Shown piece after piece: positions 32,723-44,923 of a stretch of DNA of 44,923 nt (positions are counted from its first letter, which is position 1; the number at the start of each line of letters is the position of its first letter). Both the position numbers and the translations under genes were made by a program. The DNA is from Oerskovia merdavium (lineage in GTDB: Bacteria > Actinomycetota > Actinomycetes > Actinomycetales > Cellulomonadaceae): positions 478,093-523,015 of the forward strand of contig NZ_JACSQF010000001.1 of the NCBI RefSeq assembly GCF_014836755.1, given 5' to 3'. The notes under the pieces are model-generated. The model saw only the letters and a list, made by a program, of their open reading frames with translations, was not told the DNA's origin and did not search any database.

Positions 32723-33826
32723 TCACTTCACCGTCGCGGGAAGCACCGTGAGCACTCCCTTGTTCTCCTCGATGAACTGCGCGGCGCTGTCGCTCGCGAA
32801 CGACGCCATGAGGGGGTCGAGCAGCTCACGGTTGAGCACCACGATCGACTGGCCGTCCGCCGAGCGGCCCGTGCCGTTGTGCGGGGCCGTGAGGAACGTG
32901 ACGTCGTTGGTCGACAGCCCGCGCGCGCTCATGTACAGGTTCTGGATACGGTCCATCGTGAACTGCTCGTCGACCGCCACGGACTGGCTGAAGGCCGTGA
33001 AGAACGACGTCATGAGAGGCACGTCGTTACGGTTGTTGTTGACCTTGGCAAGGATCGAGCGCATCCAGTTCTGCTGACGCTGCGCACGACCGAAGTCCCC
33101 GTTGGGCAGGCCGTGGCGCTGACGCGTGTAGGCGAGGGCCTGCTCACCGGTCATGATGTGCACGCCGGCCTCGAACTGGACCTTCTTGCCGTCGCTGATG
33201 TCCTCGGGGATGCGGATCTGCACGCCGCCCAGGGCATCGGTCAAGGACGTGAAGGACGTGAAGTCGGTGAGCGCGAAGTGGTCGATCCGCACGCCCGTGA
33301 GCTGCTCGACGGTCTCGATCATGAGTGCCGGGCCGCCGTAGGAGAAGGCCGCGTTGATCTTCGCCTCGCCGTGCCCCGGGATCGGCACCCAGCTGTCACG
33401 CGGGAACGAGACCACCTGGGCGGACTTCCGGTCGGCCGGCAGGTGGACGAGCATGATCGCGTCGGTGCGCTGCGCCCCCGCCTTCCACTGGGACGGGTCG
33501 CCCGCCGAGATGCGGCTGTCCGACCCGAGCACCAGGATGTTGACGGCCTCGTCGGGCACCTCGGGGTCACTTGGCGCGGCCTCCGGCCGGTTCTGGATCC
33601 CCTCGAACGGGTCAGCCAGCTTCTCGATGTTGCTGTCGAGATTGTTCCGGAAGGCGACCACAGCTGCGACCCCGCCCAGGCAGAGCACCGCGACGAGCGT
33701 TCCGAGGACGATCAGCGCCGTCCTGGCGCCGCGCCGGCGCTTGCGGACATGACGGCGACCTGCCCCGACGTCGCCGGAACCTGGGGTGGACTCGGTCCCG
33801 ACGGGGAGCAGCTCGTTGTCTGACAC
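32723..33826 (-). CDS. LytR-CpsA-Psr (LCP) family glycopolymer ligase
   Basis: This 367-aa protein has a basic cytosolic start (about 1-35), one transmembrane helix (about 36-59) and an extracellular LCP domain. Lipid-pyrophosphate contacts are visible: LGSDSR, RTDAIMLVHLP, SFPRDSWVPIPGHGEAKINAAF and YTRQRHGLPNGDFGRAQRQQ. LCP enzymes move lipid-linked polymers onto peptidoglycan, so this is the likely final step for the divergent polysaccharide operon. The GTG start follows TAAGAT-N7, a leaderless context. Confidence 0.95.
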   Translation of the reverse strand: MSDNELLPVGTESTPGSGDVGAGRRHVRKRRRGARTALIVLGTLVAVLCLGGVAAVVAFRNNLDSNIEKLADPFEGIQNRPEAAPSDPEVPDEAVNILVLGSDSRISAGDPSQWKAGAQRTDAIMLVHLPADRKSAQVVSFPRDSWVPIPGHGEAKINAAFSYGGPALMIETVEQLTGVRIDHFALTDFTSFTSLTDALGGVQIRIPEDISDGKKVQFEAGVHIMTGEQALAYTRQRHGLPNGDFGRAQRQQNWMRSILAKVNNNRNDVPLMTSFFTAFSQSVAVDEQFTMDRIQNLYMSARGLSTNDVTFLTAPHNGTGRSADGQSIVVLNRELLDPLMASFASDSAAQFIEENKGVLTVLPATVK

Positions 33827-34062: not shown

Positions 34063-35367
34063 ATGACCGGTCGCGCACCGAGGGGAGCGCTCCATGCGCG
34101 ACGGAAGCCGTCGTCGGGGCATCGGGTCCTCCTCGTGACCCATCACTACGCGCCCGAGACGGGGGCCCCGCAGCGCCGGTGGGGAGCACTCGTCGCCCGG
34201 TTCGTCCCGGCGGGCATCGATGTGAGCGTCCTCACTCCGCCGCCGCACTACCCCTCGGGGATCCTCGCCCCCGGGGCGGAAGCGCACCTTCCGGGAACGG
34301 TCTCGCGCGGCGCACACGGCGAGCGCATCATCCGCGTGCGCTACCGGGAGCACACGACCTCCCTGGTCTCGCGCACGCTGGACCATCTCGTGGCCGCCCT
34401 GAGCTCGATCCACCTCGGCTGGCGGCGCCTGCGTCGCCGTACCGTCCGCCCCACGGTCGTGATCGGGACCGTGCCCGGTATCCCCAGCATGTTCGCGGCC
34501 TGGGCGCTCGCACGGATCTTCCGTGCGGCCCTGGTCGTCGAGATGCGCGACGCCTGGCCCGACCTCATCCGCCCGAGCGGGATCATGACCGGTTCGCTCG
34601 CCCAGCGACGCCCTGGCCGGGCGTTCGCGACGACTCTCGCGCACCGGGTCATCACGCGGCTGCAGTCCCGCGCCGACCTGGTGGTGACCACCACCGAGAC
34701 GTTCGCTGACGTCGTCCGCTCCCGTGGTGCTCGCAACGTGGCCGTCGTGCGCAACGGCACGGCTTTCCCCGTGGTCAGCCAGCCTGCCGTGGCTCCGGGC
34801 ACGGACCTCGCACCCCGTCCGTTCCGCGTCGTCTACGCCGGGACGCTCGGCAGGTCCCAGGGGCTCGAGGTCGTGGTGCGCGCGGCTGCCGTGGTCGAGT
34901 CCCGTGGGCTGCCGATCGAGGTCAGGATCGTCGGCGCCGGCAACGACGCGACGCAGCTCGCCGCACTCGCCCGGTCGTTGGGCGCGCCCGTATCGATCGG
35001 CCCGCCCATCCCCCACGCCGAGATCGAGGCCCTCTACGGCTGGGCCGACACCCTGGTGGTCTCCCTGCGCGACTGGGAGCCGTTCCAGTGGACCGTGCCG
35101 TCCAAGCTGTACGAGGTCATGGCGTCGGGCCACCACGTCACGGCGTGCGTCGCGGGAGAGTCAGCCGAGCTGGTCCTGTCCCTCGAGGCGGGCGACGTGG
35201 TGCCCCCGGGGGACGTCGAGGCGCTCGCGAACCTCTGGGCGGGCTACGCCACGTCCGGGGTAGCACCCGTTGCGAGCCACGCAGCCAGCGCATGGGTCGC
35301 TGCCCACGCGAACGACGACGTCCTCGCCGAGACCTACCTCGCGCTGCTCGACGGCCTCACCCGATGA
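34063..35367 (+). CDS. GT4 glycosyltransferase (WbuB-like)
   Basis: This 434-aa retaining glycosyltransferase has two Rossmann halves. The N-terminal half begins HRVLLVTHHYAPETGAPQRRW and contains VEMRDAWPDLIRPSG, typical of WbuB-type polysaccharide transferases. The C-terminal donor half has VYAGTLGRSQGLEVV and the nucleotide-sugar motif PSKLYEVMASG with the E-x7-E-like acidic spacing. Cytosolic or membrane-associated. The ATG follows AGGGG. It is first in the operon, and its stop overlaps the next start as ATGA. Confidence 0.92.
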   Translation: MTGRAPRGALHARRKPSSGHRVLLVTHHYAPETGAPQRRWGALVARFVPAGIDVSVLTPPPHYPSGILAPGAEAHLPGTVSRGAHGERIIRVRYREHTTSLVSRTLDHLVAALSSIHLGWRRLRRRTVRPTVVIGTVPGIPSMFAAWALARIFRAALVVEMRDAWPDLIRPSGIMTGSLAQRRPGRAFATTLAHRVITRLQSRADLVVTTTETFADVVRSRGARNVAVVRNGTAFPVVSQPAVAPGTDLAPRPFRVVYAGTLGRSQGLEVVVRAAAVVESRGLPIEVRIVGAGNDATQLAALARSLGAPVSIGPPIPHAEIEALYGWADTLVVSLRDWEPFQWTVPSKLYEVMASGHHVTACVAGESAELVLSLEAGDVVPPGDVEALANLWAGYATSGVAPVASHAASAWVAAHANDDVLAETYLALLDGLTR

Positions 35368-37112
35368 GCCGCCCGTCCTCCGCGCGCGAGCTCGCGCGCA
35401 ACGTCCGCTTCGCCGCGTCCTTCGCGACGCACGCAGTCCTCGACGACCCGGTGTGGCTCGTGATCCAGGCCGTGCGGCGCTCGCCGGCCCGGGTCCGCGC
35501 CGTCGTGGTCCGTGCGCTGGGGCTCGCACCGTCCCCCTCGGCCTCGCGCGCTCTCTCGCGCTACCTCGCGGGCGACTCGTCCGGTGCCGCCGACGAGTCG
35601 TCACGGCTCCTCCAGACGTCGGGCGGGCGCTCGCGCATCGGCGCCGAGGTCGCCGTCGCCGTCGGACGTCCCGACCTCCTGGACAGCGTCCTCTCCCCCG
35701 GGCCCGCAGGACTGCGGGCGCTGTGGCAGCGAGGCGACGTCGCGGCCCTGCGTGCTGCGCACGCGTCGGGTCGCGCCGAGAAGCGGGTCCTGGCGAGCCT
35801 GCTGGGTCAGGTCGACGCGCTCGCGCCGCGCGCGGAGGTCCGGCTGCGGGAGGTTGCCGCGCCCTCCCCCGGTCCGACGGCGCCGCTCGCCGTGCTGCAC
35901 CACCTCACCAACTCGTTGCCGCACACCCAGAGCGGGTACACCCTGCGCAGCCACGCGGTCCTCACCGCGCAGCGCGACGCGGGGCTGCGCGTCGAGGCCA
36001 CCACACGTGCGGGCTATCCCGTGACGATCGGCTCGTTGGGTGCGCGGGGCGTCGACGTGGTCGACGGGATCCCCTACCGACGGCTCATCCCGACCGGCCT
36101 GCCGAACGATCCGGCGCGCCGTTTCTCGGACGCAACGGACCTGCTGGTCCGGGCTGCGGAAAGGTTCGAGCCCGACGTCCTGCACACCACGACGCCCGGG
36201 ACCAACGGAGAGGTCACGCGTGCCGCCGCGGAGCGGTTGGGGATCCCGTGGGTCTACGAGGTGCGCGGGCTGCCCGAGGAGACGTGGGTCGCGTCGCACA
36301 GCACACCCGAGGCCCGTGAGGTCGCGGAGCGGTCTGAACGACGCGCCCTGCTGCGCACCAAGGAGACCGAGCTCGCGGTAGCCGCCGATGCGGTGGTGAC
36401 CCTGAGCGCGACCATGCGCGACGAGCTGGTCTCCCGGGGAGTCCCGGCCGAGCGGATCTCGGTGGTGCCGAACGCCGTGCGCTCGTCGCTCCTGGCCGAG
36501 CATCCGACACCCGCTGCTGCGCGTGCGTCGCTGGGGCTGCCCGAGGCGTCGTTCGTTGTGGGCACCGTGAGCAGCCTCGTCGGGTACGAGGGGCACGACA
36601 CGATCCTGCACGCGGTCGCGCTGCTGCGTCGGCGCGGCCTCGACGTGACGGCTCTCGTCGTGGGCGACGGTGTGGCCCGGCCAGGCCTGCTGCGCCTGGC
36701 CGACGAGCTGGGACTGGGGCCGCACGCGACCTTCCCCGGGCGGGTGCCCCACGAGCAGGCCGCGCTGTACATGTCAGCGCTCGACGCATTCCTCGTGCCG
36801 CGCCGCGACGACCGCGTGACCCGCCTGGTCACGCCCCTCAAGCCGGTCGAGGCCATGGCGATCGGGCGTCCTGTGATCGCGAGCGACCTGCCGGCCCTGG
36901 CCGAGGTGCTCGACGCACCGCACGGGGGGCTGCTCGTCAACCCCGACGACCTACCCGGGTGGGCGGATGCGATCGAGTCGCTGCAGCACGACCCGGCCGT
37001 CGCCGGGGAGCTCGTTGCCCGAGGTCGAGTACTCGCGAGCGAGCGCACGTGGGCGAAAAACGCGGATGCGTACCGAGGTATCTACCGACGTTGCCTAGGA
37101 TTCACCGCATGA
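35364..37112 (+). CDS. GT4 glycosyltransferase with N-terminal helical extension
   Basis: This 582-aa protein carries a 180-residue Ala/Arg/Leu-rich helical extension before a GT4 fold that begins with LAVLHHLTNSLPHTQSGYT. Donor-half motifs include FVVGTVSSLVGYEGHDTILHAV, VPRRDDRVTRLVTPLKPVEAMAIGRPVI and GGLLVNPDD. This family acts on sugar-nucleotide donors in envelope polymer assembly. The extension may anchor it or bind a partner. The ATG overlaps the previous stop, and its own stop overlaps the permease start (both ATGA). Confidence 0.9.
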   Translation: MSRPSSARELARNVRFAASFATHAVLDDPVWLVIQAVRRSPARVRAVVVRALGLAPSPSASRALSRYLAGDSSGAADESSRLLQTSGGRSRIGAEVAVAVGRPDLLDSVLSPGPAGLRALWQRGDVAALRAAHASGRAEKRVLASLLGQVDALAPRAEVRLREVAAPSPGPTAPLAVLHHLTNSLPHTQSGYTLRSHAVLTAQRDAGLRVEATTRAGYPVTIGSLGARGVDVVDGIPYRRLIPTGLPNDPARRFSDATDLLVRAAERFEPDVLHTTTPGTNGEVTRAAAERLGIPWVYEVRGLPEETWVASHSTPEAREVAERSERRALLRTKETELAVAADAVVTLSATMRDELVSRGVPAERISVVPNAVRSSLLAEHPTPAAARASLGLPEASFVVGTVSSLVGYEGHDTILHAVALLRRRGLDVTALVVGDGVARPGLLRLADELGLGPHATFPGRVPHEQAALYMSALDAFLVPRRDDRVTRLVTPLKPVEAMAIGRPVIASDLPALAEVLDAPHGGLLVNPDDLPGWADAIESLQHDPAVAGELVARGRVLASERTWAKNADAYRGIYRRCLGFTA

Positions 37113-38050
37113 CCGCATCATCGAAGGCTCCCACGACGGGGCAGACGGAGGGGAAGGCCAGCCCGGTCGACCTCTACTCGATGCTCTTCGAGGGGCCCGA
37201 GACCAAGGTCGAGGTCATCTCGGCGGGGCGCCTGACGCGGGTCGGAGCGCGTCCGCCGTTGGGCGAGTACCTCGCCCAGCTCTGGGACCGGCGCTACTTC
37301 CTGTGGGCCGACGCGCGCGCCAAGGTCACGAGCGGGACGCGCGAGACGCTGCTCGGCACGGCGTGGCTCGTGCTCAAGCCGATCCTGGACGGGCTGACGT
37401 ACTTCCTGATCTTCGGACTGCTGCTGCAGTCCGGCCGTGGTGTCGACAACTTCGTCGGCTACCTGATCATCGGCACCTTCCTCTTCTCGTTCACCACACG
37501 TTGTGTGACCGGCGGCGCACGGTCGATCACCGCAGGACGGAACCTCATCCGAGCGTTCGCGTTTCCCCGGGCGGCACTCCCCATCTCCGTGGTGCTCCGC
37601 GAGATGCTCAACATGATCCCTGTGCTCGCGGCCATGTTCGCGATCATCCTCATTCTTCCGCCCACTGAGGTCCTTACCTGGCGGCTCGCGCTGATCCCCT
37701 TGGTCCTAGCACTCCAGGTGATCTTCTGCACGGGTCTGGCACTGCTGCTCGCGCGCGCCGCCGCCAAGCTTCCGGACCTCAACCAGCTCATCTCCTTCGC
37801 GATGCGCCTGTGGCTCTACGGCTCAGCCGTGTTCTTCTCCTACGAGAGGTTCATCGACCACCCCACGATCCTGTCGCTCATGGAAGCCAACCCGATGTTC
37901 ATGGTGCTGACCATCGTGCGGAACAGCCTTCTCTACGGAGTGTCGGTACCGGGCTCCATGTGGCTCGCTCTCAGTGCCTGGGCATTCGGTGCACTCATCG
38001 TGGGCTTCCTCGTCTTCTGGCAGGGGGAGGAGTCTTATGGTCGTCTCTGA
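37109..38050 (+). CDS. Polysaccharide ABC exporter permease (TagG/Wzm type)
   Basis: This 313-aa ABC-2 permease has a 100-residue cytosolic N-terminus and six helices from about residue 93. The segment DARAKVTSGTRETLLGTAWLVLKPILDG is typical of teichoic acid and O-antigen exporters, which move lipid-linked glycans across the membrane. It pairs with the ATPase encoded next, overlapping it by 14 nt. TAGGAT-N7-ATG also precedes the start inside the upstream gene, so an internal leaderless promoter is possible. Confidence 0.93.
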   Translation: MTASSKAPTTGQTEGKASPVDLYSMLFEGPETKVEVISAGRLTRVGARPPLGEYLAQLWDRRYFLWADARAKVTSGTRETLLGTAWLVLKPILDGLTYFLIFGLLLQSGRGVDNFVGYLIIGTFLFSFTTRCVTGGARSITAGRNLIRAFAFPRAALPISVVLREMLNMIPVLAAMFAIILILPPTEVLTWRLALIPLVLALQVIFCTGLALLLARAAAKLPDLNQLISFAMRLWLYGSAVFFSYERFIDHPTILSLMEANPMFMVLTIVRNSLLYGVSVPGSMWLALSAWAFGALIVGFLVFWQGEESYGRL

Positions 38051-38972
38051 TCCGTTCGCGTCCGCGACCGTGGCGGTCCAGGACGTCCACGTCCGCTATC
38101 GCGTCCCGTCGACCGACGCGTCCGAGAGGCGCCGAGCGAACCCTCTGGCCCGTGCGGCCAAGACGCTCCTGGGCCAGCAGCCCATGGTCTTGGTCCGTGC
38201 TCTCGCCGGTATCTCCTTCGTCGCCCGCTCCGGCGAGCAGATCGGGATCGTCGGTCAGAACGGCTCGGGCAAGAGCACGCTCTTGCGAATCATTGCCGGG
38301 CTCGAGAAGCCTGCCCGCGGACAGGTGCTCGCGGAAAGCACCCCGGTCCTGATCGGTGTCAACGCAGCCCTCGTCCCCGACCTGTCGGGGGAACAGAACG
38401 TCCGCCTCGGCTGCCTCGCGATGGGACTCACCCCCGAGGAGACCGCGCTGGCTGTGCCGGACGTCATCAAGCTCGCCGGCCTCGGGAAGTCGATCTACCT
38501 CCCCATGAAGACGTATTCGTCAGGCATGGGCTCTCGCCTTCGGTTTGCCATCGCGACGGCAGCGAACCCCGACATCCTCCTCATCGACGAGGCTCTTGCG
38601 ACCGGGGATGCCGCTTTCAAGGAGCGCAGCGAGGTCCGGATGGAGAAGCTCCGCGAGAACGCGGGCACCGTCTTCCTCGTGAGCCACGCTGCACAGACCA
38701 TCGAGGAAACCTGCACCCGGGCCATCTGGCTCAATCACGGCCGTCTCATCCTGGATGGTCCCGCCGAGGATGTGGCCTTGCGCTACCGCAAGTGGGCCTG
38801 GGCGATCGCCAAGGAGAAACCAGAGGAAGCCAAGACGATCATCGAGGACGCGCTCAGCGAGCGTGAGGACACGTTCGTCAAGATCGAAGAACCCCCGGGG
38901 AAGCTCTACACCCCCCGCCACGTACGAGGGCAGCGGCCGAAGACCCGCGCCGACAATGCAGAGAGTAGGTAG
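38037..38972 (+). CDS. Polysaccharide ABC exporter ATPase (TagH/Wzt type)
   Basis: This 311-aa ATPase has Walker A GQNGSGKST, the divergent signature TYSSGMGSRL and Walker B DILLIDEALATGD, as in TagH/Wzt/KpsT proteins. After the ATPase core there are only about 70 Glu/Lys/Arg-rich residues, so there is no carbohydrate-binding domain of the Wzt O8/O9 type. Chain-length control by such a domain is therefore unlikely. The ATG at 38037 is preceded by GGGGGAGGAG. Confidence 0.94.
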   Translation: MVVSDPFASATVAVQDVHVRYRVPSTDASERRRANPLARAAKTLLGQQPMVLVRALAGISFVARSGEQIGIVGQNGSGKSTLLRIIAGLEKPARGQVLAESTPVLIGVNAALVPDLSGEQNVRLGCLAMGLTPEETALAVPDVIKLAGLGKSIYLPMKTYSSGMGSRLRFAIATAANPDILLIDEALATGDAAFKERSEVRMEKLRENAGTVFLVSHAAQTIEETCTRAIWLNHGRLILDGPAEDVALRYRKWAWAIAKEKPEEAKTIIEDALSEREDTFVKIEEPPGKLYTPRHVRGQRPKTRADNAESR

Positions 38973-38974
38973 CG

Positions 38975-40123
38975 ATGCGCCCCCGCATCATGACCGTGTA
39001 CGGCACCCGTCCTGAGGCCATCAAGGTGGCTCCGGTCATCCGGGCCCTCGAGGAGAGCGCTCACTTCGAGTCGGTGACAGTTGTGACCGGCCAGCACCGC
39101 GAGATGCTCGACCAAGTGAACGAGCTGTTCGGGATCGTCCCCGACCACGACCTGAACATCATGAGCCATGGACAGACGCTCGCGCAGATCTTCGCGCGTG
39201 TCATCGACGGACTCGACCAAATCCTTGAGAAGGAGAAGCCGACGGCGGTCATCGTCCAGGGCGATACCTCCACGTCGACGGCCGCCGCCCTCGCCGCGTT
39301 CTACCGGCAGATTCCGGTCATCCACCTGGAAGCAGGCCTTCGGAGCGGTGACATCTCCTCTCCGTTCCCGGAGGAGGCGAATCGCAAGATCACGACCCAG
39401 ATCGCAGCACTGCACCTGGCGCCGACCGAAGTCTCCAAGGCCAATCTCCTCACCGAGGGGGTGCTCAACGCCGACATCGTCGTGACCGGCAACACCGTCA
39501 TCGACGCACTGCTCACTACGGTCGGAAAGGAGCTCCCTTTCTCGGACCCGGCACTGGAGTCCCTCGCTGCCTCCGAACGCCGCATTCTCCTGGTGACCAC
39601 ACACCGGCGGGAGAACTGGGGTGGCGCGATGGAAGGCGTCGGCAGAGCACTTGCCCGCATCGCCACCGCCTTCCCTGAGACGGAGATCGTTCTTCCCGCT
39701 CACCGCAACCCCATCGTGCGCGAAGCGGTCCTCCCCCACCTCGTCGGTCTTCCAAACATCACCGTGACGGAACCGTTGGCTTACGGCGAATTCACCCGGA
39801 TGCTCTCACTCTCGACGGTCATCCTCACGGACTCTGGCGGCGTTCAGGAGGAGGCCCCGAGCCTCGGAAAGCCTGTCCTCGTCATGCGCGAGAATACTGA
39901 ACGTCCAGAGGCGGTGACCGCCGGGACAGTTCGACTGATCGGCACCGACGAGGAGAGAATCGTCGCAGACGTCACCGAGCTCCTCAGCAACCCGATCGAG
40001 TACGCGAAAATGGCCAACGCGGTGAACCCCTACGGAGATGGCGAAGCGTCTCGACGGACCGTATCTGCGATTCGGAACCGCCTGATCGGTTCGAGTGACC
40101 ACATTGATGAGTTCACATCATGA
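38975..40123 (+). CDS. wecB: UDP-N-acetylglucosamine 2-epimerase (non-hydrolysing)
   Basis: This 382-aa enzyme interconverts UDP-GlcNAc and UDP-ManNAc. Conserved blocks are GTRPEAIKVAPVI, TGQHREMLD, QGDTSTSTAA, HLEAGLRSGD, FPEEANRK, TGNTVIDAL, THRRENWG and TDSGGVQEEAPSLGKP with RENTERPEA. ManNAc is a linkage-unit sugar in many Gram-positive wall polymers, which fits the neighbouring exporter. It starts 2 nt after the ATPase stop. Its stop overlaps the next gene's ATG, where the base composition begins to drop sharply. Confidence 0.96.
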   Translation: MRPRIMTVYGTRPEAIKVAPVIRALEESAHFESVTVVTGQHREMLDQVNELFGIVPDHDLNIMSHGQTLAQIFARVIDGLDQILEKEKPTAVIVQGDTSTSTAAALAAFYRQIPVIHLEAGLRSGDISSPFPEEANRKITTQIAALHLAPTEVSKANLLTEGVLNADIVVTGNTVIDALLTTVGKELPFSDPALESLAASERRILLVTTHRRENWGGAMEGVGRALARIATAFPETEIVLPAHRNPIVREAVLPHLVGLPNITVTEPLAYGEFTRMLSLSTVILTDSGGVQEEAPSLGKPVLVMRENTERPEAVTAGTVRLIGTDEERIVADVTELLSNPIEYAKMANAVNPYGDGEASRRTVSAIRNRLIGSSDHIDEFTS

Positions 40124-41649
40124 CCGGCCAGGCTTCATCCCGAATAAAGACCCTGGTCTTTGGCAGTTGCGTATCTCGTGACACGTTTAGCCATCTCGAA
40201 CCACAGAAGTTCGAACTCGTACAGTACATAGCACGGCAATCGATACTCAGCGCAATCTCTCCACCGACAACACTTGATATCGACCTGACTCCGCTGACAT
40301 CGCGCTTCCAGCGCAGAATGGTACGCGGAAGCCTGGAAGGCAATCTCCTCGCAAGCCTCGAAGACGCACGCCCTGACCTAATCATATGGGACATCACCGA
40401 CGAACGAACCGGCGTTTTTGAAATGTCCGACCGGAGCTACGTCACACGCATGGTAGAACTCGATCAGGTCGGAATGACTGCGAAGGTCGCGCGCGCATCG
40501 CTCAGGCACATCCAGTTCGGGACGAGCGAACATTTCTCCATCTGGACGTCAGCCTGCAATCGCCTTGCACAGCGTCTCAGCAACTTGAACCTCCTTGACA
40601 AGACGATCCTCTTAGCACCCCCATGGGCCCAATTCGACAACAATTCCGAAGAAACACCTCAAAGCTACGGCCTTACCGCAAACCAAGCCAACCAGCTAAT
40701 GGAGCCCTACCTAGAGTACGTCGAGGAACTTCTCGGGCGCGCTCGCATCACACACCCCTCACCACGAGCCGATCGGAACAGTAGGTGGGGCGTCGCGGCC
40801 TTCCACTACACAGACGAAGTATATCGTTCGCTAGCCAGGAACATCACCGGATCAGCAGATGCGGTATCACAATCAACTCCAACTCCACGCCTTAAAGAAG
40901 AGCACCACCCCCGCCAGTTGAGCACCGTAGGCGATGTGCACATACTTCACGAATTTCGCACCCTCAGCCCATCGAGGCCCACCGTAATAGCCATCGAGAA
41001 CTTGACCGAGGAGGAAGTGAGAAGCGGATCCAATTGGCTTCGCGAATCACTAGACCTCGATGGTGCCGCGAATCTTGTCTTTCTAAACGATCCAACCCTT
41101 ACCTCGAACGATTCGATACAAATAGGGTGGGGGCTTGGGACCAAGGGCACCCCCGGGATTCCCGCAATGCTCCATTTGATCCATCGGGTCCTAGGCCAGG
41201 ATGGCAGCAATCGCATCTATGTCGGATCCGGGGCTTCTGGATTCATCGCAGCCCAGCTAAGTATCCGTGACGGGGCGCCCGCTGCAATTCTCTGCAATCC
41301 AGACCTAGGCTGGTTCGAACGAAAAGCCCCTCGGGCGATTGTTCAACGTATATATGATAACGCCTCGGAACCTGGGACTGATCTGACTGACATTCGAGCA
41401 ATGCCTGCAGGAGCCTCTCCGCCTTCGTTCGAGGTCTTTGTTAACCAGTCCCATCCAGAACAGTGGAACAGCCAACTCCGCGTCATTGCCGATTTGTTGG
41501 AAATGAATTCTTCACCGATAGCCAAGCGAACCACGAAGATTCACACGTTCACGAATGAAAAGGCACCGTTCGCCACTATTTCGACCGAGAAGTTGCAAGA
41601 TTCAATCTTGGCACAACTTGATCGTATGATATTGGCGAATCAGAGATGA
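40120..41649 (+). CDS. DUF6270 (SGNH-like) domain fused to a degenerate alpha/beta-hydrolase domain
   Basis: This 509-aa protein has two parts. Residues about 10-245 are DUF6270, SGNH-like: FGSCVSRD with S16, DLIIWDITDER at 86-96 and a closing WGVAAFHYTDEVY with H229. Residues about 280-505 align with the separate hydrolase at 42770: VFLNDPTLTSNDSIQIGWGLG against VFVSDPALTSAPDITIGWHIG. But the elbow GGSAGG there is GSGASG here, replacing the nucleophile by G371, and the acid and histidine also seem lost. I infer a catalytically active SGNH half that could add or remove acyl groups on polysaccharide, and a binding or structural second half. Low G+C and overlap with wecB (ATGA) suggest a transferred cassette. 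Confidence 0.75.
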   Translation: MTGQASSRIKTLVFGSCVSRDTFSHLEPQKFELVQYIARQSILSAISPPTTLDIDLTPLTSRFQRRMVRGSLEGNLLASLEDARPDLIIWDITDERTGVFEMSDRSYVTRMVELDQVGMTAKVARASLRHIQFGTSEHFSIWTSACNRLAQRLSNLNLLDKTILLAPPWAQFDNNSEETPQSYGLTANQANQLMEPYLEYVEELLGRARITHPSPRADRNSRWGVAAFHYTDEVYRSLARNITGSADAVSQSTPTPRLKEEHHPRQLSTVGDVHILHEFRTLSPSRPTVIAIENLTEEEVRSGSNWLRESLDLDGAANLVFLNDPTLTSNDSIQIGWGLGTKGTPGIPAMLHLIHRVLGQDGSNRIYVGSGASGFIAAQLSIRDGAPAAILCNPDLGWFERKAPRAIVQRIYDNASEPGTDLTDIRAMPAGASPPSFEVFVNQSHPEQWNSQLRVIADLLEMNSSPIAKRTTKIHTFTNEKAPFATISTEKLQDSILAQLDRMILANQR

Positions 41650-42761
41650 GGATTCTCATGCCGGTCTCTTATGTTGCAGAGTCTGGTGGGCTTCACGATC
41701 ATATCGAGGAAATTGCCGTCTCGGCCCCCCAGTTCGGCGTAGAAGTGACCGTCCTTGGTCGTAGAGGTGTCTTTCTCGACCGACTCAAGAACCTTGGATT
41801 GAATGTAATTGCAACCGATCCGGCAGATACCGAAGACGCTATGCGTGACGTGCAGAAATATGGGCCTTGGGATCTGATTCATTCGCACCCTTTTGGCGCT
41901 CGTGAGTTTGCGTTCGCTGCCGCGGAAGTGCTCAAGATCCCAGTCGTCGTCACCATCCACGGCTGGTACGATGACAAGATTAGCGAGTGGCATTCAAAGG
42001 CGAGTGCCATCATCGGAGTAACCGACGCGATCTCGACCAGGCTTCGGGCAACGCCAGGTATTGATCAATCCAGAGTATTTACGATCGATAATCGGTTCAA
42101 GGTGGAGCGGGGAGCGGTTCACCCATTTCAGCCTGCACGTTCCCCATTCATGATTGCGATTGCTTCGCGGATTGATCGCGATTTTGGACCGGTCCTCTCA
42201 ATATTGGACGACTTCGCGGCGTCTTGTCAGGAATACGAAGACCCGCGGTGGATGTTCACGATAGCGGGAACAGGCTCCCACGTCGGAGAGGTTGTGCGCC
42301 GAGTGGCCAATGTCTGGTCCGGACGATACGCACCTAGAACAAGCCTCATTGGCTGGTTGGACGCTACGGAGCTTTCCACCATGTATGATCGGTCGTTCTT
42401 GGCTATTGCTCCGGGCCGCGCGGCTCTCGATGCGATGCGGCGCGGGGTTCCTACGATCCTCACCCGTCAGATTGGCAGCTTCTCGCTTCCTCCATTTGGT
42501 GATCCACTCTCCCTACTTGCTGGAAATCCCGGTAGTGAGATGGTCCGCGGGCGGGACGTCTACCTGAATTGTAGACGCCTTGCAGAAGACCCCGATCTAT
42601 GGGAACAACTGAGCCATCAAACACGACGTGTGGTGGACCTATTTTACAATTCCGGGGCGAGCACCAGGCGTCTTCACGCAATCTATGAAGCCGTCATAAT
42701 GCGTTCAACTTTGAGCGCCCAGTGGCCCAACAGAAGCAACCTCGTCAGTGAAGTCGATTAG
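41646..42761 (+). CDS. GT4 glycosyltransferase (low-GC)
   Basis: This 371-aa protein has the GT4 layout: RILMPVSYVAESGGLHDHIE at the start, LIHSHPFGAREFAFAAAEVL, VVTIHGWYDD, a donor half with FTIAGTGSHVGEVVR and GRAALDAMRRGVPTIL. The donor-site acidic pair is less clear than in the two upstream transferases, so it is a more divergent member. The ATG overlaps the previous stop (ATGA). It has the same low G+C as its two neighbours, with which it probably moved as a set. Confidence 0.82.
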   Translation: MRILMPVSYVAESGGLHDHIEEIAVSAPQFGVEVTVLGRRGVFLDRLKNLGLNVIATDPADTEDAMRDVQKYGPWDLIHSHPFGAREFAFAAAEVLKIPVVVTIHGWYDDKISEWHSKASAIIGVTDAISTRLRATPGIDQSRVFTIDNRFKVERGAVHPFQPARSPFMIAIASRIDRDFGPVLSILDDFAASCQEYEDPRWMFTIAGTGSHVGEVVRRVANVWSGRYAPRTSLIGWLDATELSTMYDRSFLAIAPGRAALDAMRRGVPTILTRQIGSFSLPPFGDPLSLLAGNPGSEMVRGRDVYLNCRRLAEDPDLWEQLSHQTRRVVDLFYNSGASTRRLHAIYEAVIMRSTLSAQWPNRSNLVSEVD

Positions 42762-42769
42762 GAACCGAG

Positions 42770-43654
42770 ATGAACGTGCGGAAACGAACCATCGATGGGT
42801 CACAGCATCAAATTTCTACATTCGAATCAGTTGAGTCGTTCCTTCAAACTTCGAAAGTCCCATCGGGAATGCTTGTGATCCGGCAAAACGGGCGGCCACT
42901 CGACATCTACAATGTTCCGAGTAGATCCGTAACGGACACCACGGTCGTTTTCCTTCACGGCGCAGCTCCTCGCGACGTTCGACTTCCCTACTTTGCCGGT
43001 CAGGAGATCTCACGTGGAATCAATTTCAATCGTGTCTTTGTTTCCGACCCTGCACTGACGAGCGCTCCTGATATCACTATCGGTTGGCACATTGGCGATT
43101 CCTACGCTCCGCACTTGCAATCCGACTTAGTTTGCATTCTGAAGGCCATAGTGGACTCCCATGGGGCAGGCAGAGTAGTGTTCTTCGGCGGCTCCGCAGG
43201 TGGCTATGCTTCACTCTTCTACTCTGCCAAGTTTGCCGGAAGTCTCTGCATTGCCTACAATCCTCAGACGAGTATTCGAAGGTACATCTCGGGGAAGGTG
43301 CGCGAATATGCGTGCTCCGCTTGGAACATCGAAGCGAACGAGTACGACCCACTCGAGTACGTGGAGCGGCGAGCCGTAACCGATTTGTGCGACTTGTATT
43401 CAACTCGTCAGGGAAATACTGTTGCACTTCTTCAGAACACGCAGGATGCATATCATGTTGAACGTCATTACAACCCGTTTGTCAAGGCGAACATGCCGGA
43501 GAACTCGATCTGGATGCTTAAGGATGCCTGGGGGCCTGGGCACACTCCACCCTCTAAGGTCGTCCTGAGAAGCCTACTGGAAGGTTGTTTGGACGACGGA
43601 GCTTGGTCAAGCATCCTCTCCAACCTCGGCTTCCGGGAAGCGGAGGTAATCTAG
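42770..43654 (+). CDS. Alpha/beta-hydrolase-like protein, intact paralogue of the fusion's C-terminal half
   Basis: This 294-aa cytosolic protein has an oxyanion-type HGAAPRD at 63-69, the nucleophile elbow FGGSAGGY (S142), a probable acid in QNTQDAYH and a histidine in GPGHTPPS. It matches the second half of the 40120 product across about 200 residues. The fold resembles hydrolases or acyltransferases of polysaccharide loci, including the Asp2-like group, but the substrate is unknown. It is the last gene of the operon, 8 nt after the GT4 stop. A sample line (43201-43260) is 29/60 G+C, far below the rest of the window. Confidence 0.7.
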   Translation: MNVRKRTIDGSQHQISTFESVESFLQTSKVPSGMLVIRQNGRPLDIYNVPSRSVTDTTVVFLHGAAPRDVRLPYFAGQEISRGINFNRVFVSDPALTSAPDITIGWHIGDSYAPHLQSDLVCILKAIVDSHGAGRVVFFGGSAGGYASLFYSAKFAGSLCIAYNPQTSIRRYISGKVREYACSAWNIEANEYDPLEYVERRAVTDLCDLYSTRQGNTVALLQNTQDAYHVERHYNPFVKANMPENSIWMLKDAWGPGHTPPSKVVLRSLLEGCLDDGAWSSILSNLGFREAEVI

Positions 43655-44081
43655 CGGTCCGTCTTTAAGAATCGTCGCATTTGTGGGTGTAGTTGGGGTC
43701 TGAAGCAGGCTCCCGGCAAAGTTGGCATGTGGGGCTGTGGCCTGCGTCTTTGCTGGCCGACATGCCGGTGCGGGCTTGCAGGTCTCGGGTTGAATGACAG
43801 GTTCCGACGCCTTCATCCGGCCCGGGAGCACACTCGCGAATGTCGTCGTCTTGTATCGCTTTGTCCGCGGGTGGGACTGTTTCGCGGCGCGAGCATCAGA
43901 TGACGTACTGGCCGACATTCCCGATCCCCCGTCAGGCGCGTGGGGTGCGGCATCTGCTGTCGGGCCCGATCGCCGTGGCGCTGTGTGTGGTTATGGTGGC
44001 TCGGCGGACTTCTGGCGGGTCCGCCGCAGTGTCTCGTGGCGGGTCTGGCCCAGGCTTTCATTCCCCGAGTGGATGGAAGTC
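43655..44081. other. Gene-poor junction before the IS relic
   Basis: About 430 nt with no convincing gene. Short frames on both strands are compositionally odd, stop-bounded and without motifs. The base composition climbs from low GC back towards the genome average across it, so it probably contains an insertion boundary and debris of older elements. I cannot fix the left end of the IS3-like element. Confidence 0.4.
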
Positions 44082-44402
44082 ATGGCTGCACCGAGGAAAC
44101 CCCCGGAGGGGCTTCGGGACTGTGCGATCCGCATGTCGGTCGATCCGCGGCTTGATCCTGCGACCCGTCAGGGCGCTTTGGCCAGGGTTGTTGAGCAGCT
44201 CGGGATCAATCCTGAGACGTTGCGGAACTGGGTCACGCGGGCGGAGGTCGATGCTGGTGTTCGGTCCGTGACCACGGCGAGCGATGGCAGTGGTTGGCTG
44301 AGCTTTGGCGGGAGAACCGTAGGTTGCCGGCCGGCGAACCATATTCTGCGCACGGCGTCGGATTTCCTCGCGGCGGAGCTCGACCGCCCATCGCCCAGGT
44401 AG
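44082..44402 (+). pseudogene. IS3 OrfA remnant
   Basis: Starts MAAPRKPPEGLRDCAIRM, with GALARVVEQLGINPETLRNW as the helix-turn-helix. In the leucine-zipper region the expected LAELWRENRRL is readable only in another frame (from 44294). The original frame resumes at ANHILRTASDFLAAELDRP. Two compensating indels therefore scramble about 12 residues while leaving the frame open. Confidence 0.8.
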
Positions 44403-44809
44403 TGGCCCAGCTCGACGTCCACCGTGGTGAGGTCGTCGAGGGACGTGAGCTCGGGGTCGAGCTGATCTGTAGGGTGCGATAGAGGAGCCCTCTACATCGC
44501 CAATCGCCACACCCTGCGCCTCGCCTAAGCCGGTGTCGTGGCCTCGGTCGGATCGGCCGGTGACTCCTACGACAACGCTCTGACAGAGGCTTTCACACGC
44601 TCTTCAAGGCCGATCTCGTACGCAACAATGGCCCCTGGGAGAGCATCGACGACTTCGAGATCGCCACGGCCGAGTACATCGACTGGTTCAACCACCGGCG
44701 CGTGCTCGGCGAGATCGGACTCGTCCCGCCGACCGAGTTCGAGTCCGCCCACCGCCATCAAAACCTCGCTCCGACTACCATCGAAGCATCAGTTCCAAGT
44801 CACCACTAA
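44403..44809 (+). pseudogene. IS3 OrfB (rve/DDE transposase) remnant
   Basis: An N-terminal scrap DVHRGEVVEGRELGVELICRV is followed, after loss of most of the protein, by IANRHTLRLA, a TAA stop (44526-44528), AGVVASVGSAGDSYDNALTEAF, a frameshift near 44593, and TLFKADLVRNNGPWESIDDF through IDWFNHRRVLGEIG to a stop at 44807-44809. These are the C-terminal motifs of IS3 transposase. It cannot make an active enzyme; movement would need a transposase in trans. Confidence 0.85.
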
Positions 44810-44860
44810 ACCCGGTACGAAACGCACCGTCGCGGTACTCCTTGGGGGGCCTTGACCCCT

Positions 44861-44923
44861 GATCGTGGACACGCTGATTCCAGGTTCGCCCTGGAGGAAG
44901 CGAGAAGATCTGATCATGGCAAG
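44861..44923 (+). mobile_element. Possible left end of another IS element
   Basis: tgatcgtggacac... followed by a GGAGGAAG SD and ATGGCAAG at 44916, cut by the window edge. The layout (terminal TG, about 50 nt, SD, OrfA start) resembles the left end of IS3-group elements. Too short to confirm. Confidence 0.35.

Follow-up and report, generated by a model that had tools for sequence, protein, structure and literature searches.

We analyzed a 44,923-nucleotide window (the whole stretch of DNA under study) from Oerskovia merdavium, contig NZ_JACSQF010000001.1, in which two open reading frames (ORFs) one gene apart encode related domains of very different catalytic potential. The first product, P0001, joins a DUF6270 domain to an alpha/beta-hydrolase-fold domain which, with all the certainty that sequence and a predicted fold allow, lacks catalytic machinery; the second, P0002, is a live-looking member of the same family, which resembles the polysaccharide O-acetyltransferase CsaC. 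Since the dead copy is retained in four related bacteria, we conclude that it is a conserved pseudoenzyme of the CsaC-like family, probably with a non-catalytic job. The features concerned are as follows.

40120..41649, forward strand: P0001, fusion of DUF6270 and the dead CsaC-like domain, 509 amino acids; its ORF start shares 4 bases with the end of the wecB ORF
40156..40809, forward strand: DUF6270 domain (PF19786), residues 13-230 of P0001 (Pfam, E 2e-64)
40906..41640, forward strand: CsaC-like domain of alpha/beta-hydrolase fold, apparently catalytically dead, spanning about P0001 residues 263-507 (AlphaFold2, Foldseek, hhalign)
40996..40998, forward strand: codon of E293, at an oxyanion-loop position (H63 of P0002), common to five of five dead fusions
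41224..41241, forward strand: former nucleophile elbow G369-S-G-A-S-G374, serine lost; G371 codon at 41230-41232
41302..41304, forward strand: codon of D395, which stands where CsaC has its Gln extension (Q166 of P0002), common to five of five dead fusions
42770..43654, forward strand: P0002, live-looking CsaC-like putative polymer O-acetyltransferase, 294 amino acids
43193-43195, 43265-43267, 43445-43447, 43454-43456 and 43541-43543, forward strand: P0002 codons of S142, Q166, D226, H229 and H258

The original prediction had located both ORFs, which were present as described, and had proposed from an alignment by eye that the second half of P0001 is related to P0002. The C-terminal half of P0001 and P0002 are indeed homologous alpha/beta-hydrolase-fold domains: they share 29% identity across 79 amino acids (BLASTP, E 1e-8), and a profile of five fusions matched a profile of 12 live family members with a probability of 98.7 and an E value of 4.2e-16 (hhalign). 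AlphaFold2 models built on 17-row alignments reached a predicted local distance difference test score (pLDDT) of 95.5 for P0002 and of 88.0 for P0001, the latter with a predicted template modeling score (pTM) of 0.69.

P0002 has a complete triad, consisting of the GxSxG serine S142 in the motif GGSAGG, D226 and H258, while the corresponding elbow of P0001 reads GSGASG and carries G371 in place of the nucleophile. The two elbows lie at the same strand-helix turn in the predicted secondary structures (strand 135-141 and helix 143-152 in P0002; strand 365-370 and helix 371-384 in P0001). Counting strands in the models also paired Q166 with D395, H63 with E293 and D226 with about H445, and there was no histidine at P0001 residues 478-490, the region that matches H258 by this count. 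In the sequence of P0002, positions 63, 64, 106, 107, 142, 166, 226, 229 and 258 are H, G, W, H, S, Q, D, H and H; in the family alignment the same columns of P0001 read E, N, W, G, G, D, H, Q and F. The C-terminal domain of P0001 therefore has none of the serine, the glutamine, the aspartate, the histidine three residues after it and the histidine of the triad. The earlier suspicion that acid and histidine had been replaced along with the serine was thus borne out, and a usable Ser/Asp/His triad, looked for in the predicted structures of the fusion, did not appear. We also considered a register shift that would make S370 or S373 the nucleophile and rejected it, since the five fusions vary at these positions (S, T, T, S, A and S, M, M, G, S, respectively).

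The same loss was found in other genomes. From 53 neighborhood loci (the window included) and 39 loci of a related-locus search, partly the same places, we gathered 75 family domains, of which 68 remained after removal of identical ones. Serine occupies the nucleophile column in 63 of the 68 and glycine in five, and the latter are exactly the five dead DUF6270 fusions, namely that of the window and L060 (genome G079), L106 (G448), L107 (G446) and L108 (G450), all four from Isoptericola. Each of the five has glutamate at the H63 column and aspartate at the Q166 column, and neither residue occurs at its column in any of the 63 other domains. Their residues at the D226 column are H, G, G, H and H, and at the H258 column F, Y, Y, L and H, the histidine being that of L108. 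Pairwise identity of the dead domain among the five fusions ranges from 20% to 58%. Within its former active site, the acid and histidine loops hold a single invariant residue (N442), and it is the oxyanion, GW, elbow and NPD loops that carry the conservation signal. In the closest pair, L060 and L106 (NG86 method), the dead domain has a nonsynonymous rate (dN) of 0.34 and a synonymous rate (dS) of 1.92, compared with a dN of 0.17 and a dS of 1.63 for DUF6270. The fold is thus kept, the catalytic residues are lost, and the loss is conserved across species with a dN/dS of about 0.18 in that closest pair, as is expected of a pseudoenzyme. Decay of one gene in one genome was rejected as an explanation, because the same loss is kept in four other genomes.

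Phylogenetic analysis of the 68 domains united the five dead rows in one clade (support 100/98), which is nested together with ten live rows in a 15-row clade (100/98) apart from P0002. The ten live rows, from genomes G077, G213, G299, G146, G159, G554, G570, G258, G507 and G545, came together as one group with a support of only 81/59, so the dead clade may be their sister or may have arisen among them; the tree tool also warned of long-branch attraction. These live rows (L061-L065 and L197-L201) keep the serine, glutamine and histidine; their D226 column holds serine with an aspartate three residues further on, and the acid position may have moved in this lineage. A scan of one genome per species (84,980 species) with two degenerate patterns built from the five fusions, a search of limited sensitivity that possibly did not include the window's own record, returned 38 stretches; four encode a relative, all from Isoptericola. 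A fusion profile matched 45 of 221 genomes of the window's family, mostly across DUF6270 alone. Among the loci examined, the fusion of DUF6270 with a dead CsaC-like domain occurred only in the window's genome and in Isoptericola.

Two further ORFs, L072:6324-8039 (reverse strand, G267) and L203:7899-9713 (forward strand, G514), each encode two domains of the family, of which the first looks live and the second has diverged. The second copy of L072 has no GxSxGG motif, that of L203 retains the serine and reads PEL where others read PQT, and the two group together in the tree (99/98, long branches).

Regarding the live copy, the original prediction had spoken of a hydrolase family. The alpha/beta-hydrolase fold was confirmed, but a plain hydrolase identity was not: while a single-sequence search of the PDB with P0002 was weak (best E 0.016), both profile and fold searches led to CsaC. 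When 12 live members including P0002 were combined into a profile, CsaC (deposited as SacC, 6yuo) ranked first in the PDB with an E value of 5.7e-4, ahead of Asp2 as the next molecule (E 0.0077). CsaC residues S114, Q138, D198 and H201 are in register with this profile, the aligned stretch stopping before H228. In Foldseek searches of the PDB with the P0002 model, ranks 1 to 5 were all CsaC chains (E 1.2e-8 to 7.7e-8, template modeling [TM] scores of 0.54-0.59). The residue spacing of P0002 equals that of CsaC, with Q166 at S+24 (S114/Q138 in CsaC) and H229 at D+3 (D198/H201). By spacing, the position of CsaC Y79 is His107 in P0002; tyrosine stands at that column in 40 of the 68 domains. Two other labels were weak and were not used, namely UPF0227 for P0002 (18.7 bits against a cut-off of 21) and XcbB/CpsF (3 of 12 members, best E 9.8e-4). 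According to the CsaC report (PMC7501274), H201, Q138 and Y79 form an extension of the S114/D198/H228 triad of CsaC; the S114A and H228A mutants showed no detectable transfer, and the D198A and Q138A mutants lost 99.5% and 96.8% of it, respectively. As P0002 has S142, Q166, D226, H229 and H258 arranged as in CsaC, our best guess is that it is a CsaC-like acetyl-CoA:polymer O-acetyltransferase, which is likely by this analogy; most likely it would O-acetylate a wall polymer of the N-acetylmannosamine (ManNAc) type.

The other half of P0001 matches DUF6270 over the full profile (1-222 of 222) with 218 bits against a gathering threshold of 27.5 (E 2e-64). Residues C17, R20, D21, D91, D94, E95, R96, W223, G224 and H229 are invariant in all five fusions, and eight of these ten are also kept in 13 diverse DUF6270 sequences (not D94, and G224 nearly). 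Elsewhere DUF6270 occurs alone or fused to a sulfotransferase (by Pfam in L074, L110, L048 and L115), to a GT2 glycosyltransferase (L117) or to a hexapeptide transferase (L113), and also to live CsaC-like domains (L052, L067, L070, L075 and L116, with L073 detected by a second profile). L109 resembles the sulfotransferase group by eye, with no such Pfam match. From these sequences, the slot after DUF6270 appears to be modular. Among the top 50 matches listed, whole-protein fold searches of P0001 returned mostly alpha/beta-hydrolases, and a search against predicted viral proteins (BFVD) gave no help for DUF6270. In the literature covered, which excludes most subscription papers, we found no paper on DUF6270/PF19786 or one of its motifs; nor did a search combining pseudoenzymes with capsule, O-acetylation or acyltransferase, of the same coverage, yield a pseudo-acetyltransferase of this kind.

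The surrounding genes agree with the surface-polymer modification setting proposed for this module in the original prediction, since the locus contains a UDP-N-acetylglucosamine (GlcNAc) 2-epimerase together with Wzm/Wzt and LytR-CpsA-Psr (LCP) genes.

32723..33826, reverse strand: LCP protein of the wall-polymer ligase family (PF03816, E 4e-48)
35088..37112, forward strand: GT4 glycosyltransferase; the true start is probably downstream of the listed GTG
36959..38050, forward strand: Wzm-type ABC-2 permease
37974..38972, forward strand: Wzt/TagH-type ABC transporter ATPase
38975..40123, forward strand: non-hydrolyzing UDP-GlcNAc 2-epimerase, WecB (TIGR00236, 473.5 bits against a cut-off of 210.15)
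41646..42761, forward strand: GT4-type glycosyltransferase, 371 amino acids (Pfam)

WecB lies directly upstream of the dead fusion in all five genomes, overlapping it or separated by at most 30 bases, with Wzm and Wzt ahead of the fusion in every case; across the 53 loci, wecB directly precedes 15 of 39 DUF6270 ORFs. A homologue of the GT4 gene at 41646..42761 follows the fusion in L107 (phmmer, 338.6 bits). In G079 and G448, a gene close to the fusion scores above the NCBIfam cut-off for UDP-ManNAc dehydrogenase (WecC). The window's own genome has such a gene on contig C42, where it adjoins a glycosyltransferase gene whose product shares 67% identity with the one near the G446 fusion. G446 itself has a dehydrogenase of the Pfam family, and the fetched part of G450 showed none. 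Given the WecB and WecC genes, the polymer likely contains ManNAc or N-acetylmannosaminuronic acid (ManNAcA), which fits a CsaC-like enzyme. Window positions 43794-44923, up to the contig end, hold insertion sequence (IS)-like ORFs (HTH_Tnp_1, E 0.002, below the cut-off), and positions 1-744 of C42 (L214), the contig that carries the dehydrogenase and two glycosyltransferases, begin with an IS3 transposase fragment; because of these two ends, the locus may continue onto C42 across an insertion element. The G+C content of positions 40000-44000, which span the fusion, the GT4 gene and P0002, is 0.53-0.57, compared with 0.61-0.77 in the other 1-kb bins, and suggests that this segment was acquired laterally as a cassette.

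The explanation that we favor, to which we give about an even chance as a whole, is that P0001 and P0002 act on one ManNAc-type wall polymer in the cytoplasm, ahead of Wzm/Wzt export. In P0002, by analogy with CsaC, Ser142 would accept the acetyl group, His258 would activate the sugar hydroxyl and Gln166 would position the acyl-enzyme. The catalytic part of P0001 would be its DUF6270 domain, with the invariant Cys17, Asp91 and His229, probably in acyl or other group transfer. Its CsaC-like domain, predicted to be unable to form an acyl-enzyme, would have arisen once from a live O-acetyltransferase lineage whose own members usually occur alongside P0002-type enzymes. This domain would have kept its fold while its pocket was rebuilt (glycine elbow, Glu293 and Asp395), and its most likely role would be to hold the polymer for the DUF6270 domain, which is our first choice among the remaining readings. 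The boldest reading, to which we give a low chance, is that the rebuilt conserved site and a Cys-dependent DUF6270 transferase make up a single polypeptide for reading or reshaping the nascent ManNAc(A) polymer, with acetylation left to the separate live paralogue.

Several observations weigh against this explanation. The fold match of P0002 to CsaC is moderate (TM 0.54-0.59), with another hydrolase close behind at rank 6 (E 8.2e-8) and 939 PDB chains matching the P0002 fold at an E value of 0.001 or less; the best fold match of P0001 is an esterase, with CsaC at ranks 4, 14, 34 and 38. The dead fusions number only five, belong to a single clade and come in four cases from Isoptericola, and one of them, L108, retains histidine at both the H258 and the H229 column. 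Over the eight of ten pairs for which it could be computed, dN/dS spans 0.18-0.81 in the dead domain and 0.10-0.79 in DUF6270, with dS near saturation. Of 242 gapless positions in the dead domain 27 are invariant, and the concentration of 14 of these in 44 positions surrounding what was the active site (Fisher p 2e-5) speaks for the explanation; the pocket segments, however, were picked by hand after the alignment had been seen, and several invariant residues in them are common to live members. DUF6270 has no credible sequence match in the PDB and no further Pfam match, and its catalysis is argued from conservation only. Finally, the pTM of the P0001 model and a pLDDT below 50 at residues 251-260 make the relative placing of the two domains unsure.

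The original prediction had instead seen the dead copy as a scaffold or ligand-binding subunit for the live one. In the form of an allosteric or docking subunit of P0002, that is, a pseudoenzyme-enzyme complex, we consider this unlikely, albeit with some points in its favor. A P0002-type gene adjoins or lies within about 4 kb of the live member of the dead copy's lineage in eight of ten genomes. The exceptions are G258, with none in the 18 kb fetched, and G545, with none there and a match about 25 kb away; further copies elsewhere in G159, one with stops, were excluded from the count. In G077 and G507, the live gene adjoins a longer ORF whose end is a P0002-type domain. A live-looking and a diverged second copy also share one ORF in L072 and L203, and CsaC itself is described as a tetramer (PMC7501274). 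Among genomes with a dead fusion, two of five have a P0002-type gene near it (G079 directly after the fusion, and the window after one gene). In G446, only remote family members were present, consisting of an Asp2/CsaC-like gene near the fusion, which is a row of the search profile itself and was hence found by construction, and another match elsewhere. The former (L107:5806-6693, forward strand) has a GSSKGG elbow and is convergent with the GT4 gene and the dead fusion; it was the sole match to the Asp2 family PF16929 among the proteins scanned (E 5e-4, below the cut-off). A profile search found no P0002-type gene in G450 (74% complete). Two profile searches of G448, an assembly of 30 contigs with an estimated completeness of 100%, detected the fusion and no other family member, a partner beyond the reach of the profiles being possible. 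Because G448 has a dead fusion without another family member, a scaffold role is possible in some genomes but on this evidence is not the general reason for the existence of the dead domain. That DUF6270 is joined to several other domain types also argues against it.

Similarly doubtful is a repurposed active site, in which Glu293 and Asp395 with a small Gly371 floor would perform new chemistry, making the domain different rather than dead. The presence of all three residues in five of five fusions, despite domain identities down to 20%, and their absence from the 63 other domains would fit such a site; on the other side, we know of no precedent for such a Glu/Asp pair, no search for one having been made. 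Least probable of all is a decaying relic kept only through its joining to DUF6270: the length of the branch that leads to the dead clade (1.9 changes per column), the faster evolution of the dead domain relative to DUF6270 in L060/L106 and a dN/dS of up to 0.81 in distant, saturated pairs would agree with decay, but the domain is full-length in five genomes with the same pocket residues in each and the low dN/dS of the closest pair, and many loci have DUF6270 ORFs that lack it.

Compared with known systems, P0002 is closest in profile and fold to CsaC/SacC, the enzyme that O-acetylates the serogroup A capsule in N. meningitidis (PDB 6yuo, 6yuq, 6yus and 6yuv). They have in common the Ser-Asp-His residues, the glutamine at S+24, the histidine at D+3 and, likely, a ManNAc-type polymer. 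P0002 differs in its low identity (13-15% in fold matches), its Gram-positive Wzm/Wzt/LCP locus and His107 at the Y79 position by spacing, whereas the P0001 domain has none of the catalytic residues. Asp2 of the accessory Sec system (PDB 6lnw, PF16929) O-acetylates glycans by means of a Ser-Asp-His triad; its catalytic mutants are reported to remain capable of exporting the adhesin, which sets a precedent for a role beyond catalysis (PMC5578698). P0002 had no Pfam match to PF16929 and a weak profile match to the Asp2 structure (E 0.0077), and, unlike in the Asp2 system, no SecA2 or SecY2 was present among the window ORFs scanned. For DUF6270, a lead is offered by WcbI, a capsule protein that binds coenzyme A, with Cys14 and His201 at the thiol, and that seemed to need a partner protein (PMC4104973). 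The two share an N-terminal strand followed by an invariant cysteine, an invariant histidine, a polymer locus and a suspected acetyltransferase function; searches of PDB sequences and Pfam gave no match of DUF6270 to WcbI or to SGNH proteins. The authors of the CsaC study did not decide whether extending the triad by Gln is a general route from esterase to transferase (PMC7501274). The present finding adds an actinobacterial branch that has the residues of CsaC in a likely ManNAc-polymer locus, and the dead clade amounts to a natural knock-out lineage in which serine, glutamine and aspartate (and histidine in four of five) were lost while the domain was retained. Together, they make two questions testable: what the glutamine is for, and what job is done by a polysaccharide acetyltransferase fold that is unable to acetylate.

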